A DNA stretch of 59,759 bases from an uncultured Oscillospiraceae bacterium. GTDB taxonomy: Bacteria > Bacillota > Clostridia > Oscillospirales > Oscillospiraceae. Positions within the stretch are counted from its first letter, which is position 1. Each line of letters begins with the position of its first letter. The position numbers and the translations under genes were made by a program. The stretch is from the NCBI GenBank assembly GCA_947630345.1, contig CANRHF010000002.1:1-59759 (forward strand). The letters are read 5' to 3'. This document shows positions 136 through 6,892 of this stretch, piece by piece. The notes under the pieces are model-generated. The model did not search any database, was not told the origin of the DNA, and saw only the letters and a list, made by a program, of their open reading frames with translations.

Positions 136-1155
136 TCACCGATTTCCATACATCCTTTGATAATAATTCTGGTAATCGCCAGAGATGATCTCCTCCCACC
201 AAGTCTTGTGGTCGAGATACCACTGGATCGTCTTCCGGATGCCGTCGGCAAATTTCGTCTCAGGCAGCCAGCCCAGCTCGCTGTGGATCTTTGCCGGGTC
301 GATGGCGTAGCGCATATCGTGGCCCTTGCGGTCAGTGACGTAGGTGATGAGGCTCTCCGGTTTGCCAAGGGTTTTGCAGATCAGCTTCACGATGTCGATA
401 TTCCTCATCTCGTTATGCCCGCCGATATTATACACTTCACCGTCCCGGCCCTCGCGGAGGATGCGGTCAATCGCCTTGCAGTGATCCTCAACGTAGAGCC
501 AGTCGCGGACGTTTTCGCCCTTACCGTAAACCGGAAGGGGCTTGTCGTTCAGCGCGTTCGCAATCATCAGCGGGATCAGCTTCTCCGGGAATTGGTACGG
601 ACCGTAGTTATTCGAGCAGCGGGAGATTGTCACCGGCAGGCCAAACGTGCGGTGGTACGCGAGGACGAGCAGGTCGGCGCTCGCCTTCGAGGCGCTATAT
701 GGGCTGGAGGCGTGGATCGGCGTGGTCTCTGTGAAAAACAGATCCGGCCGGTCCAGGGGCAAATCGCCGTAAACCTCGTCCGTCCCCACCTGATGAAACC
801 TTTGGATGCCGTATTTCCGGCAGGCGTCCATCAGCACCTGCGTGCCGAGAATGTTCGTCTGGAGGAATACCTCCGGGTTCTCGATGCTGCGGTCGACGTG
901 GCTCTCCGCCGCGAAGTTGACAACCACGTCGGGCTTCTCTTCTTCAAAAAGCTTATACACGCCCTCTCGGTCGCAGATGTCGAGCTTTACAAAGCGGAAG
1001 TTCGGGTCATCCATCACATCTTTCAGCGTACTGAGATTACCCGCGTAGGTCAGCTTGTCCAAGCAGACGATTCGGTCCTCCGGGTGATTTTCCAGCATGA
1101 AAAAGATGAAATTCGAGCCGATGAATCCGGCGCCGCCGGTCACGAGAATAGTCAT
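136..1155 (-). CDS. rfbB: dTDP-glucose 4,6-dehydratase
   Basis: [16 protein letters not shown] Rossmann start; [23 protein letters not shown] and [18 protein letters not shown] are RmlB motifs. Confidence 0.95.
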
Positions 1156-2030
1156 TTTGTTTCCTCCGCAAGAGACATCAGATACTGTCCGTATTCTGTC
1201 ATTTTCAGTTCTTCGCCGAGCGTTCTCATCTGTTCAGTCGTGATGAATCCGCGCCGCCACGCAATCTCTTCAATGCACGAGATATAGAACCCCTGCATCT
1301 CCTGCACCGCTTTCACAAAGCTGCTCGCCTTGTGCATTCCGTTGGGGGATCCCGTATCCAGCCACGCCATTCCGCGGCCCATCAGCGTCACACGCAATTT
1401 TCCCCGCCGCAGATATTCGTTATTCACAGCGGTGATCTCCAGCTCTCCCCGCGCGGAGGGCTGCACATGCTTCGCAATCTCCACGACCTCGTTATTGTAG
1501 AAATACAGTCCAGGCACGGCGTAATTGGACTTCGGTTCCTGTGGCTTTTCCTCAATGGACAGGACGCGATTGTTTTTATCAAATTCCACAACGCCGAACT
1601 CTCTCGGATCCTTCACCGGGTAGCCGAAGATCGTCGCGCCATCCTTTTCCGCCTGCCGCTTCGCCTCGTCCAGTGTAGTCGAGAAGAACTGCCCGTAAAA
1701 CACATTGTCGCCCAGAATAAGGCACACGCTGTCCTTCCCGATGAACCCCTCGCCGAGGATAAACGCATCCGCCAGGCCCCGGGGCCTGTCCTGCACCGCG
1801 TATGTAAACCGTACACCGATCCGCGAGCCGTCGCCGAGGAGCTTTTTGTAATGCTCAATATCCTCGGGCGTCGAGATAATGAGGATCTCGCGGATCCTTG
1901 CAAGAAGCAGGATCGACAGGGGATAATAGATCAGCGGCTTGTCGTAGACGGGCAAAAGCTGTTTGGAAACGGAAATCGTGTTTGGGTAGAGCCTTGTCCC
2001 TTTGCCACCTGCTAGAATGATGCCTTTCAT
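1152..2030 (-). CDS. rfbA: glucose-1-phosphate thymidylyltransferase (trimmed to [16 protein letters not shown] start)
   Basis: [43 protein letters not shown] upstream of the ATG at 2030; overlaps rfbB start. Confidence 0.95.
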
Positions 2031-2166
2031 GTGTTTTTTGTCCTCTTTCTTTCGGAATATCAGAAATTTGCCGGCGATATAATTGATGACATTCACAGCG
2101 CGTTTTGCAGTCAAATCGTTGCGTCCCCACTGCGGCAGAACATCCCACCGTCATTGATCGGAAGCG

Positions 2167-3345
2167 TCATCTTTCATGGCGCAAATATTCTTTTACGTTT
2201 TCAAAATACGCGATCGCGTGCTCGATGCACACATCCATGTTGTAATACTTAAATTCCGCGAGCCGGCCGCAGAGGAACAGATTCTTATACTTTGCAGCCT
2301 CCTCAAGATACCGGCCATATAGCGCCTCGCTCTCCTGGGTCACCACCGGGTAGTACGGAATATTCCCGACCTTGGCGTTCGGATCGTACCAGAGCGGGTA
2401 CTCGGTAGCGACGACGCTTCCTCGCGCGCCGCTGTCGTCAAACATGATCTTCCTGTATTCCGTACTGCGCGTTTTCCCTTCCGCCTGCGGGAAGGAAATG
2501 ATCTCCGACGGCAAGACATCCTCCGATTCGCTGGATTCGTACCGGATATCCAACGAACGGTACGGGAGACTGCCGAATTTGTACTGGAACAGCTCGTCGA
2601 TCGGCCCGGTGAAGATCAGGAGCTCCACCTCATCGGCGTCATAGGTGATCTTGTTTGTCCGCTCCTCCAGGGCAATGTGCTCAAGCGCGTCCGTCTCCAA
2701 GCGAACGTCGATGTTCGGATGATCCAGCATATTTCGGAAGATCTCCGTAAACCCTTTCTTGGGCAGGTACTGAAAATCCTTATTCAGGTATCGCTCGTCG
2801 TAATTCATCGCGAACGGGACCCGTTCCAATACATATTTGTCGATCTTATTGACGTCCGTCCCCCACATTTTAGAGGTGTAGGTCCGAAACGCCTTTTCAA
2901 ACAGCAGCGTCCCAAATTCGGAAACTTCCCGGTCCGGGCAGTCAACAATCTGCAAAATCGGAACACGGTCGCTACCGGGAAAATTTTCCCGCAGTTTCCG
3001 CAGGACCGTCTCCGCCCGCTTCGCGCCGATCAGCTCCTGCACGGACTGAAAGTTGAACGGCAGACGGATATACTGTCCGTCTAGAAAGCTCAGGAGCTTC
3101 GTGTTATGCGGGAAAAGCTCCGCGTACTGGGACAGGTATTCGATGATCCAATATTTATTGGTGTTGAGAAAATGCGGTCCGTAGCGCTGCACGAGGATCC
3201 CGTGCTCGTCGTATTCATCGTACATATTTCCACCGATATGGCCGCGCTTTTCCACGACCTCCACTTTGCGGCCGCATTCCTCCGCAATCTTCCGCGCGAG
3301 GATGCTCCCCGAAAAGCCCGTGCCGACAACAATGATCCTACCCAT
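2167..3345 (-). CDS. glf: UDP-galactopyranose mutase
   Basis: MGRIIVVGTGFSGSILARKIAEE FAD-binding start; GPHFLNTNKYWI; CGRLAEFKYYNMDVCIEHA C-terminal Glf motif. Confidence 0.93.
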   Translation of the reverse strand: MGRIIVVGTGFSGSILARKIAEECGRKVEVVEKRGHIGGNMYDEYDEHGILVQRYGPHFLNTNKYWIIEYLSQYAELFPHNTKLLSFLDGQYIRLPFNFQSVQELIGAKRAETVLRKLRENFPGSDRVPILQIVDCPDREVSEFGTLLFEKAFRTYTSKMWGTDVNKIDKYVLERVPFAMNYDERYLNKDFQYLPKKGFTEIFRNMLDHPNIDVRLETDALEHIALEERTNKITYDADEVELLIFTGPIDELFQYKFGSLPYRSLDIRYESSESEDVLPSEIISFPQAEGKTRSTEYRKIMFDDSGARGSVVATEYPLWYDPNAKVGNIPYYPVVTQESEALYGRYLEEAAKYKNLFLCGRLAEFKYYNMDVCIEHAIAYFENVKEYLRHER

Positions 3346-3356
3346 GTTTTTTCTCC

Positions 3357-4271
3357 TTACAAGTTTTCTTTGACCCACGCCGCTGTTTTCAGGATGCTTT
3401 CCCGGAAATCCGCCGTACACTCGAAGCCGGTGTCGCGGTAAAGCGCATCGAGGTCGATCTTGCTGTAATTTCGGCTGCTGTTGTCGTCCGGGTACGCCCC
3501 AAACAGCAGCGGTACACCCGGCGCGACGATCTGTCCAATGTCCGTCACATATGCGCGGAAGGTGCGGAGCGTCCTGTGCCCCACATAATAACTGCGAAGA
3601 TGAACGCCCCGCTCCCCTATGGCGTAGAACGCACGGGCAATGTCGTCGATATAAATGAAGTCATACGGAATGTTTCCTTCAATGAGGCGGGGACTTTCTC
3701 CCCGGACCAGCTGCTTCAGCACGACGTTTGCCAGCATCATGGAGCGATTGTTTTGGCCGTAAGACATGGCGGTCAGCCCGGCGCTGTACTCGATGCCGGA
3801 ATTCGCGGCGATCGTTTTGCAGACGATCTCGGCGGCGGTCTTTGCGGCGGAGTAGATACAGGTATATCGGGGCGACTGCCCGCTCATATCGAGATGGTCC
3901 GCCACTTCGATCTCATTGTATGTACCTGCAAAGACAAACTTTTTGCAGCCGATTTGGACCGCTTCGGTGATGGCATCCCCCGCGCTCGCCGCGTTGGAAA
4001 GCTGAAGACGGTAATCCTTGAACGGTTCTCCGAACACGCCCTGCCACGCGAAGTGATAGAACACATCAACGTCATCGCAGATCATCTCATGGAGATGGTC
4101 ATACTTTGTAAAGTCCGCGACCACAGGATGGAAGTTCGCTTTTCCGCTATGCCTTGCAAGCGCTCGCTCGGAGATATCCACCCCGTAGACGGTAACGCCT
4201 TTATTGAGCAGAAGTTCTGTCAGCGCGCCGCCGATGAACCCGCCCGCGCCTGTGACAATGGCTGTTTTCAT
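3357..4271 (-). CDS. NAD-dependent epimerase/dehydratase (SDR), candidate nucleotide-sugar 4-ketoreductase/epimerase
   Basis: MKTAIVTGAGGFIGGALTELLL GxxGxxG; YSAAKTAAEIV YxxxK; start codon overlaps the stop of the upstream gene (ATGA). Confidence 0.85.
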   Translation of the reverse strand: MKTAIVTGAGGFIGGALTELLLNKGVTVYGVDISERALARHSGKANFHPVVADFTKYDHLHEMICDDVDVFYHFAWQGVFGEPFKDYRLQLSNAASAGDAITEAVQIGCKKFVFAGTYNEIEVADHLDMSGQSPRYTCIYSAAKTAAEIVCKTIAANSGIEYSAGLTAMSYGQNNRSMMLANVVLKQLVRGESPRLIEGNIPYDFIYIDDIARAFYAIGERGVHLRSYYVGHRTLRTFRAYVTDIGQIVAPGVPLLFGAYPDDNSSRNYSKIDLDALYRDTGFECTADFRESILKTAAWVKENL

Positions 4272-5227
4272 GCAGCCACCGCCTTTCGAGCGGCAGCCAG
4301 CAGGATAACTTTATATTCAGTTACCCCCCCCCGGGTATTATTTGGGGTCTGTGATTTAAGCCAATTTGCCGTTTTCAGAATGCTCTCCTTAAAATCGGAT
4401 TGACACTCGAAGCCGACCGGGATTTCTTTCGTCAGCTCTGTGTAATCTATGTATGTATTCTCCGGCATTTCGCCAAAAACGAAACGCCTTTCAGGACAGA
4501 TTGCTGCGCCCATATCCGTGATTTTTTCTCTGAACGTCGAAATGCTTTTGTGGCCTATATAGTACTCATTGTACGGTTTTCCTTTTTCCGCAAGACAAAT
4601 CAAGCCCCTAACTGTATCGTCAATGTATACCCAGTCGTTCGGATTATTGCCCTGAACAAGCTTAAGCGGCAGACTGTTTTGCATGGCGTTTATAATAGTG
4701 TTTACAGCCTTTCTGGAGCGATCGCCCACACCGTAGGTGTTTGTTAAAACTGCTTTGACATACTCCGTTCCGGCCTGCGAGCATATCTGCGCGCAGATAT
4801 CCCCCGCCGCGCGTTTTGCTATACCGTATGTGTTGATGGAAAAATCTCCTGTCGTCTCGCTTTTCATGTGCTCATAACTCGAACTTACGAAGACAAATCT
4901 TTTGCAGATATTCAAAGCATCTTTGCATACCTTAGCAGCGGTTCTAATGTTATCCGTCTGCAATTCAACATCATATAAATCCTTGCCCCCAAGTGTGCCG
5001 CCCCATGAAAGATAAAACATCACATCAGCTATTTCTGGGATTCTTTCCGAAAGATTTTCAGCGGTTAAATCTATAGCAATAGGAGCAAAATTTTCGAACT
5101 GACAGAGCGGGTCAAGATATTCAGCCTTTATGTCCGCGCCGTAGACCTTACACCCCAGATTCAGGAGTGCTTTCGTCAGCGCGCCGCCAATAAATCCGCC
5201 CGCGCCTGTTACAATGGCTGTTTTCAT
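4268..5227 (-). CDS. NAD-dependent epimerase/dehydratase (SDR) with a C-terminal tail encoded after a G9 tract
   Basis: MKTAIVTGAGGFIGGALTKALL; YGIAKRAAGDIC; G9 at 4324-4332 followed by tail VTEYKVILLAAARKAVAA. Confidence 0.85.
   Translation of the reverse strand: MKTAIVTGAGGFIGGALTKALLNLGCKVYGADIKAEYLDPLCQFENFAPIAIDLTAENLSERIPEIADVMFYLSWGGTLGGKDLYDVELQTDNIRTAAKVCKDALNICKRFVFVSSSYEHMKSETTGDFSINTYGIAKRAAGDICAQICSQAGTEYVKAVLTNTYGVGDRSRKAVNTIINAMQNSLPLKLVQGNNPNDWVYIDDTVRGLICLAEKGKPYNEYYIGHKSISTFREKITDMGAAICPERRFVFGEMPENTYIDYTELTKEIPVGFECQSDFKESILKTANWLKSQTPNNTRGGVTEYKVILLAAARKAVAA
4324..4332 (-). repeat. G9 homopolymer (C9 on + strand) inside the 3' end of the SDR gene
   Basis: Direct reading: tta-ccccccccc-gggtatt on + strand. 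Confidence 0.97.
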
Positions 5228-5238
5228 GGAATCCTCCT

Positions 5239-5793
5239 TCAGAAATTCACATCACTGTCTTTCAAAAACGGTGCGTTTCTGTCTTTCTCGGAAACGATCG
5301 GCGTGATGTCTCCCCAGTCAATCCTGATCTCCGGGTCGTTCCACGCGATCGCTCGGTCGTATTTAGGCTCGTATAGCTCGTCCACTTTGTACTGCACTTC
5401 CGTATCATCGACAAGTGACATGCAGATGTGTCCGAACCCTCTCGGAATATAGATTTGCTGCTTTTTCACATCGTCTAATACAACAGAAACGTACTGCTTG
5501 TAGGTGGGCGACGCTTTCCGCAAATCGACCGCAATATCGAGGATCTTCCCTCTCGTACAGCGCAGCAGCTTTGCCTGCGCTTTCGGAGCATTTTGAAAAT
5601 GGATGCCTCGAACAGTATGCTTTTTCAGGTTGCGCAGGTGGTTATCCTGCACAAAGACATTGTCGATTCCAAATTCAGCCATCGTCCGCTTCGAATAGGA
5701 CTCCATGTAATAACCGCGATAATCCTCAAAAACCTTCGGCGTAAAGAGGATCACTTCGGGAATGGCGAGTCGCTCTGCTTTCATTCTTTTCAC
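5239..5793 (-). CDS. rfbC: dTDP-4-dehydrorhamnose 3,5-epimerase family protein
   Basis: VFEDYRGYYMESYSKRTMAEFGI, FVQDNHLRNLKKHTVRGIHFQ, IYIPRGFGHICMSL: RmlC cupin motifs. Confidence 0.92.
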   Translation of the reverse strand: MKRMKAERLAIPEVILFTPKVFEDYRGYYMESYSKRTMAEFGIDNVFVQDNHLRNLKKHTVRGIHFQNAPKAQAKLLRCTRGKILDIAVDLRKASPTYKQYVSVVLDDVKKQQIYIPRGFGHICMSLVDDTEVQYKVDELYEPKYDRAIAWNDPEIRIDWGDITPIVSEKDRNAPFLKDSDVNF

Positions 5794-5826
5794 CCTTTCA
5801 TCAATAAATCACCTAGACCCTCTTGG

Positions 5827-6858
5827 TCAAGCTGCTAATAAGTGAGGACTGGAATGTTCATTGATGAAAGTTTGAATTCTATTATGGATATGGGGTATAT
5901 CCCTGCTTTTTTCAAAAGATAAACTGACTAAGTATCTAAACCCCCCCCCAGCAATTTTAGCGGGTTTCTTCTGAGAATTCATCCATGCCAAAATAGATCG
6001 GCGTACCGTAATCCCCTGCAATTTCAGCTTTGAGGAATCAAACACTGTATTTCCCGATTCGATCTTGCGGTCAATCTCCGGGTACTCAACATAGTCAATC
6101 CCCACCCCGTACAAGGGCGCAATTAGCTCTGCCAATTCCTTTAGGCTAAGGTCGTCTCCTCCAATGTTATAAATGTCGTTTACGCACTTCTCGGAAACTG
6201 CCCCATCGATCAAGTTGTTGCACAGATCTTCAATATGTGTAAACGTGCGCCTCACTTCTCCGTTTCCGTACAGTCGGATATTCTCGCCCTTCATCGCTCT
6301 ATTCCGCATGAACTCTACCGTTCCGTAAGAAGACGCCCCCGGGATCAGAGATCCATAGGGAACACAGATCCTGAAAATGCAATACCGCACACCGTATACG
6401 CGGCTGAACTGCTCCAGATACTGTTCACAGGCAAATTTATTGATCGAGTAAATGGTTCGAAATTCCTTTTCGTCCGTCTCTTTCAAGGGCATGCTGCTGC
6501 CTTTATAGACTAACCTTGTCGAAGGAAAAACGATCTTTGCTTTAGATCCCTGTTCCCTATAAGCTTCGAGGACATGAAGCAACGCGCGCTCGTTGATGTC
6601 AATAAATGTATCATAGTCGTCAAAACCTGCAGCTGAACCGGTCTTCCCGATGAACATAAAGACAACATCGGCATCTAGGTCTATATTGGAAACAGACGCT
6701 CTATCCAGAATCTGTACTTTTTCATATGCCTGTTCTCCATCTGCGTGCGTATCAGCGCGGTCGTAGAGCCGGAGCAGTACGTTTGGGAACCTTCTTTTCA
6801 AAACGACAAGAAGATTTCGCGCGATATAACTGTTCGCTCCAATAACCGTAACTTTCAT
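5827..6858 (-). CDS. NAD-dependent epimerase/dehydratase (SDR) with a C-terminal tail encoded after a G9 tract (start trimmed to MKVTVIGANSYIARN)
   Basis: MKVTVIGANSYIARNLLVVL; YSINKFACEQYLE; G9 at 5941-5949 encodes AGGGF then the tail. Confidence 0.85.
   Translation of the reverse strand: MKVTVIGANSYIARNLLVVLKRRFPNVLLRLYDRADTHADGEQAYEKVQILDRASVSNIDLDADVVFMFIGKTGSAAGFDDYDTFIDINERALLHVLEAYREQGSKAKIVFPSTRLVYKGSSMPLKETDEKEFRTIYSINKFACEQYLEQFSRVYGVRYCIFRICVPYGSLIPGASSYGTVEFMRNRAMKGENIRLYGNGEVRRTFTHIEDLCNNLIDGAVSEKCVNDIYNIGGDDLSLKELAELIAPLYGVGIDYVEYPEIDRKIESGNTVFDSSKLKLQGITVRRSILAWMNSQKKPAKIAGGGFRYLVSLSFEKSRDIPHIHNRIQTFINEHSSPHLLAA
5941..5949 (-). repeat. G9 homopolymer (C9 on + strand) inside the 3' end of the SDR gene
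   Basis: Direct reading: ctaaa-ccccccccc-agcaatttt on + strand. Confidence 0.97.
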
Positions 6859-6892
6859 CAAATTCACCTCCCATCCCAAATTATCTTCTTTT

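Follow-up and report, generated by a model that had tools for sequence, protein, structure and literature searches.

Two G9 tracts in a surface-glycan operon of an uncultured Oscillospiraceae bacterium probably act as slippery register switches, each controlling the translation of the gene that follows it, with slippage varying the surface glycan. Judged from the sequence, phase variation of the downstream gene via translational coupling is the most likely description of the locus, and both tracts appear to be in the coupled register at present. This gut Clostridia relative carries the operon, a deoxysugar/surface-glycan locus, on the minus strand of the window (the whole analyzed stretch of contig CANRHF010000002.1, 59,759 nt). 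The operon encodes, in order, a glycosyltransferase, a MatE-type flippase, a GT8 protein, an NDP-hexose 2,3-dehydratase (PF03559), a Gfo/Idh oxidoreductase, SDR3 (carrying tract 2), rfbC, SDR1 (carrying tract 1), SDR2, UDP-galactopyranose mutase, rfbA, and rfbB. A pattern search of the genome (1.97 Mb in 241 contigs) located only four tracts of at least eight G, two of which, both G9, are 1.6 kb apart within this operon; by rough arithmetic, the chance of two of four tracts lying so close is ~1%. By dinucleotide shuffle alone, the G8 count in the window is unremarkable, and the tracts are remarkable for their place and surroundings rather than for their number in the window. Both are within the range of lengths associated with slipping (about G8-G9 or more).

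Tract 1 (C9 on the plus strand) spans positions 4324-4332, near the 3' end of SDR1 (4268-5227, minus strand), which encodes an NAD-dependent epimerase/dehydratase (PF01370) of 319 aa at G9. The next gene, SDR2 (3357-4271, minus strand), encodes another NAD-dependent epimerase (PF01370) and is the first proposed switched gene. The registers at both tracts were worked out by translating the SDR genes with altered G counts (G7 to G11 for SDR1). At G9, the SDR1 product is predicted to end in TRGGVTEYKVILLAAARKAVAA; the tail added by this register, VTEYKVILLAAARKAVAA (4268-4323, minus strand), is open only at G9 (modulo 3) and terminates at a TGA (4268-4270) that overlaps the SDR2 ATG (4269-4271) as ATGA (4268-4271). 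At G8, the product ends in TRGG, with a TAA right behind the tract, and at G10 it ends in TRGGGN, with one extra residue before the stop; both of these stops are located 0-4 nt past the tract, ahead of the hairpin described below. The tract, the ATGA overlap, and the products of the three registers are all as described in the initial annotation, which had also held that the tract follows an already complete SDR domain, that slippage would spare the upstream enzyme, and that the register decides whether ribosomes arrive at the next start codon. Alignments with homologs of SDR1 reach residues 294-297 (out of 319), and the Epimerase domain assigned by Pfam finishes at residue 225, well upstream of the tract, such that the catalytic domain is whole before it, as in C-terminal phase variation. 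The two remaining claims are supported as well. Over their first 54 bases (5175-5228 and 4218-4271), SDR1 and SDR2 are 93% identical, compared with only 39% identity between the proteins, a pattern that could reflect gene conversion or a possible recombination site that would delete SDR1.

In translational coupling, a hairpin that hides the ribosome-binding site (RBS) of a downstream gene is opened by a ribosome translating the upstream ORF, which then terminates at the start of that gene. The stop/start overlap is present at tract 1, and fold prediction also yields a hidden RBS: a 10-bp hairpin (4274-4298, minus strand; arms 4289-4298 and 4274-4283) holds the SDR2 RBS GGCGGTGG in its 3' arm, with the site itself, GGCGGUGG, forming that arm of the stem. 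The minimum free energy (MFE) of the hairpin is -22.7 (z = -4.07), and none of 200 shuffled sequences was equally stable; on repeat, the z score was -3.5, and it was -2.7 for a longer segment. A search of positions 3900-6300 against Rfam 15 found no curated leader or attenuator family up to E = 1. Under the proposed mechanism, ribosomes leaving SDR1 in the coupled register (G9) would translate the tail across the hairpin, opening the stem, and would end at the ATGA atop the SDR2 start, where the same or following ribosomes would initiate. In the other two registers, ribosomes would stop immediately past the tract, the hairpin would stay shut, and SDR2 would be little translated, with SDR1 predicted to be functional in every register. 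Slippage of the poly-G DNA would shift cells between these states and thereby vary the surface glycan; at this locus, we infer slippage and its effects on both translation and the glycan. The initial annotation had proposed a contingency locus that acts on coupling rather than on/off. The first part of this proposal is favored by the recurrent layout, the opposite registers in orthologous gene pairs, and the tract-length differences among prophages reported below. The second part fares less well because the location of the SDR2 RBS inside the hairpin makes an on/off (or strong/weak) output likelier than one in which only the stop codon moves.

The second G9 tract in the neighboring SDR gene and the stem over the rfbC start had not been included in the initial annotation, nor had the hairpin at tract 1. 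Tract 2 (5941-5949, minus strand) is located near the 3' end of SDR3, just past its conserved part; SDR3 (5827-6861, minus strand) encodes an NAD-dependent epimerase/dehydratase (PF01370) of 344 aa at G9. The 37-aa tail (5827-5940, minus strand) is open only in the G9 register, and at G8 and G10 translation would stop 9 and 3 nt past the tract, respectively, far ahead of a long predicted stem (5789-5876, minus strand) with 20-nt arms (5857-5876 and 5789-5808) that are 85% complementary. The 3' arm of this stem is predicted to cover the RBS of rfbC (5239-5784, minus strand), which encodes a dTDP-4-dehydrorhamnose 3,5-epimerase (PF00908) and is the second proposed switched gene. Tract 2 would act on rfbC in the same manner as tract 1 on SDR2, except that the G9 tail, after crossing the 5' arm, has its stop at 5829-5827, in the interval separating the two arms. 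The stem is significant only locally (z = -2.6 in the local segment and -1.6 in a longer one), and there is no ATGA at this junction, the SDR3 stop being ~43 nt ahead of the rfbC ATG.

The layout recurs in related bacteria. In another species of the same genus (G035), a G10 tract occupies the same place between SDR1 and SDR2, and the tract, the ATGA, and the hairpin are all retained at 38% identity of SDR1 and 87% identity of SDR2. When the stems from the two species were aligned by eye, three changes were found that still pair (U-G to C-G, G-U to A-U, and U-G to C-G), along with the loss of one outer pair. A second module in G035 precedes a GNAT acetyltransferase gene: the upstream formyltransferase gene carries a G9 tract in the predicted stopped (uncoupled) register, and the orthologous gene pair in a genome from another family of the order (G328) carries G9 at the same spot in the predicted coupled register because one base ahead of the tract differs. 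The G035 formyltransferase module has no convincing hairpin (z of about -0.2 to -0.4), and the same applies to one further module (L172). The genes downstream of the bacterial modules mostly encode glycan enzymes (GT2, GT4, hexapeptide transferases, PglD, CMP-sugar synthetase, and formyltransferase), and single genomes contain a module ahead of a LicD gene (G025) or of Alg14 (G113).

Modules of the same kind are found in prophages, where the tract is often found within a leader ORF that is only ~10 codons long and has no other apparent function, which points to the downstream gene as the target. A scan of viral contigs identified 13 modules with the full design as defined below. A prophage-like region of G035 contains two modules, each consisting of a tract within a leader ORF of ~10 codons with its own RBS, then a hairpin of 8-10 bp, and then the ATGA of a small tail-region gene. 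In four prophages, a tail-like gene (Gly_rich_2 or Laminin_G_3) is preceded by a nearly identical module, with tract lengths of G9, G9, G10, and G9 and a one-base indel just past the tract; a second module, present in two of the four, has G12 in one copy and G10 in the other, and registers change between copies. The first module is predicted to be off and the second on in L164, with the reverse in L167; one of three modules is predicted to be on in L272, and none in G035 and L248. Several of these prophages (L152:4533-7400 [G035:C1], L272 [an Acetatifactor MAG contig], L164, L167, and L248) contain tandem tail-region genes, several of which have their own poly-G leader module, with predicted states that vary between copies and between related prophages. 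Compared with L164 and L167, in L174 the leader and hairpin of the first module are joined to the tail gene of the second, and the junction lies at an N terminus common to both gene types (RSMMGRKK); therefore, the modules recombine.

These comparisons bear on the possibility that slippage alters the last residues of SDR1 and SDR3, such that the tail matters for the protein and the next gene is irrelevant. The tail is indeed read at G9, and such a class has been described in Helicobacter canadensis and Neisseria gonorrhoeae, including an epimerase with G14 (PMC2823697; PMC5320596). However, the tail residues are unconserved between the window and G035 except for those encoded by the RBS, the "protein" in many prophage modules is a leader of ~10 codons, and the hairpins and ATGA endings would be left unexplained; altogether, we regard this account as improbable. 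A polarity switch, in which an early stop would leave untranslated RNA subject to Rho termination and lower the expression of rfbC, SDR2, glf, rfbA, and rfbB together, with the hairpin being secondary, is quite unlikely to be the primary function of the tracts. The downstream genes do belong to the same operon, including the distal rfbB, rfbA, and glf (UDP-galactopyranose mutase; 136-3345, minus strand) that are possibly affected, and polarity has been invoked for G-tract pilus operons of Bifidobacterium breve (PMC9187656). Nevertheless, stopping at tract 1 leaves only ~50 nt untranslated before the next start, and polarity accounts for neither the RBS hairpins nor the ATGA endings; it is compatible with the coupling switch as an added effect.

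The frequency of the layout was compared with that at control positions. The full design was defined as one register that ends at an ATGA 25-75 nt past the tract with an ORF of at least 60 aa behind it, two other registers that both terminate no more than 26 nt on, and an ORF with an ATG and RBS that enters the tract from upstream. Among 54 distinct, unselected tracts of at least nine G in 36 genomes of the genus, 6 show the full design, compared with 0/52 on the C strand, 34/60,000 random positions, and 25/20,000 random positions followed by TA (0.06-0.13%; binomial P of about 1e-12 to 1e-10 for 6/54 versus random). These six tracts come from three genomes and include the discovery locus and two paralogs. 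Folding was compared between 22 nonredundant full-design modules, picked blind to folding, and 92 tract-free ATGA junctions of similar length: the median MFE z score was -2.03 in the modules versus 0.17 at the junctions (P = 1e-7), and RBS pairing was 0.69 versus 0.48 (P = 8e-6). The signal is confined to full-design modules, with RBS pairing across the whole mixture of loose-pattern matches giving a null result, and open coupled frames are not enriched under the broad ATGA pattern in all genomes. Many of the loci come from MAGs, where homopolymer lengths are least reliable. Chance or neutrality, with fixed-length G9 tracts at ordinary ATGA junctions or homopolymer errors of assembly, could be argued from the single fragmented assembly, in which the G9 of the window could be fixed in length, and from ATGA overlaps and RBS-containing stems being common in operons and in general, respectively, but has little probability against the excess of the full design and of hairpins, the tracts that occupy equivalent positions in a diverged species and across the cross-family orthologous pair, and the different tract lengths in related prophages.

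The full design is a minority among poly-G tracts, concentrated in some lineages and their phages. It was found in 2 of 106 unselected viral G10-TAAA tracts, both from one module family (control, 0/92), and in 1 of 22 family-wide G9-TAA tracts, with an expectation of about 0.07; this single case, L084 from the wider family, has an 11-bp stem (z = -4.8). The strict prophage-type pattern, applied order-wide, yielded nothing in 394 sampled genomes. Given the rarity of the design in the viral and family-wide sets, the coupler is one of several uses to which poly-G is put. Comparison with the reversed pattern suggested that TAA is overrepresented after G9 (23 versus 8 matches), but most such tracts lack the coupled design. 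The loose DNA pattern mixes classes across genomes, for example, G tracts followed by TATAAT, a promoter type: at three loci (L192, L250, and L261), G9-G10 is directly followed by TATAAT, an arrangement that resembles transcriptional phase variation through the promoter spacer. At two other loci in related genomes (L041 and L077), G9 is perhaps inside acetyltransferase genes whose remainder is in a different frame, which is probably phase variation of the ordinary on/off kind. Flagellin genes (L216 and L304) are immediately preceded by a tract of G9-G11 with one register that ends at ATGA, and the tract lengths differ between two isolates (G11 and G9).

Whether these modules amount to a distinct, recurrent class of phase-variable translational couplers is, in our assessment, evenly balanced. 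Such a module would have two dead registers and one that passes through an RBS-hiding hairpin to an ATGA; gut bacteria would vary their glycan genes with it, and their prophages would use tandem arrays to vary tail-fiber-like genes, with one or a few members translated at a time. If so, this is a compact module that involves three tract lengths and one hairpin, with the poly-G lying either in the last part of an upstream gene or within a dedicated leader ORF. Catalogs of phase variation mostly score a tract by the breakage of its own gene and can easily set aside tracts at 3' ends and in tiny leader ORFs, which, if the coupler exists, switch the neighboring gene instead. In that case, surface-sugar genes in commensal Clostridia would join the known targets of phase variation, as would genes of their phages that are likely to act in host recognition.

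The closest known systems share parts of this design. Poly-G tracts at 3' ends in H. canadensis were named C-terminal phase variation (PMC2823697), so that the 3'-end placement, considered unusual in the initial annotation, belongs to a class already described. Table 2 of the same source lists an rfbB-type epimerase, HCAN_0165, with G14 (reads of G11-17) and 4, 1, or 18 residues past the tract. The likeness to SDR1 is striking: a 3'-end poly-G in an epimerase-type gene, two registers that end soon, one that adds ~18 aa, and an unchanged enzyme body (PMC2823697). The output differs: as far as the accessible text of the two reports extends, it is an altered C terminus or, among the 3'-end tracts of N. 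gonorrhoeae, also a fusion to the next ORF, and neither an RBS-hiding hairpin nor an ATGA ending nor coupling to the next gene is proposed there (PMC2823697; PMC5320596). The GeneTack survey of frame transitions includes clusters with coupling but assigns phase variation to one class and coupling to another (PMC3711429); apart from this survey, no paper was found in the open-access literature that combines phase variation, translational coupling, and a leader ORF, or that describes a tract switching the coupling to a hairpin-hidden RBS. In the sortase pilus operons of B. breve, another gut commensal, replication slippage of a G tract was measured, and an effect on the downstream genes is discussed there as well, attributed to polarity (PMC9187656). 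The B. breve tract differs in its position near the 5' end of a pilin ORF, whose two parts it connects (PMC9187656).

The proposed SDR1-SDR2 switch resembles classical translational coupling in the opening of an RBS structure by the ribosome and in the overlap of stop and start. Classical coupling, however, is normally constitutive, whereas in the proposed switch the arrival of the ribosome would depend on a mutable tract.
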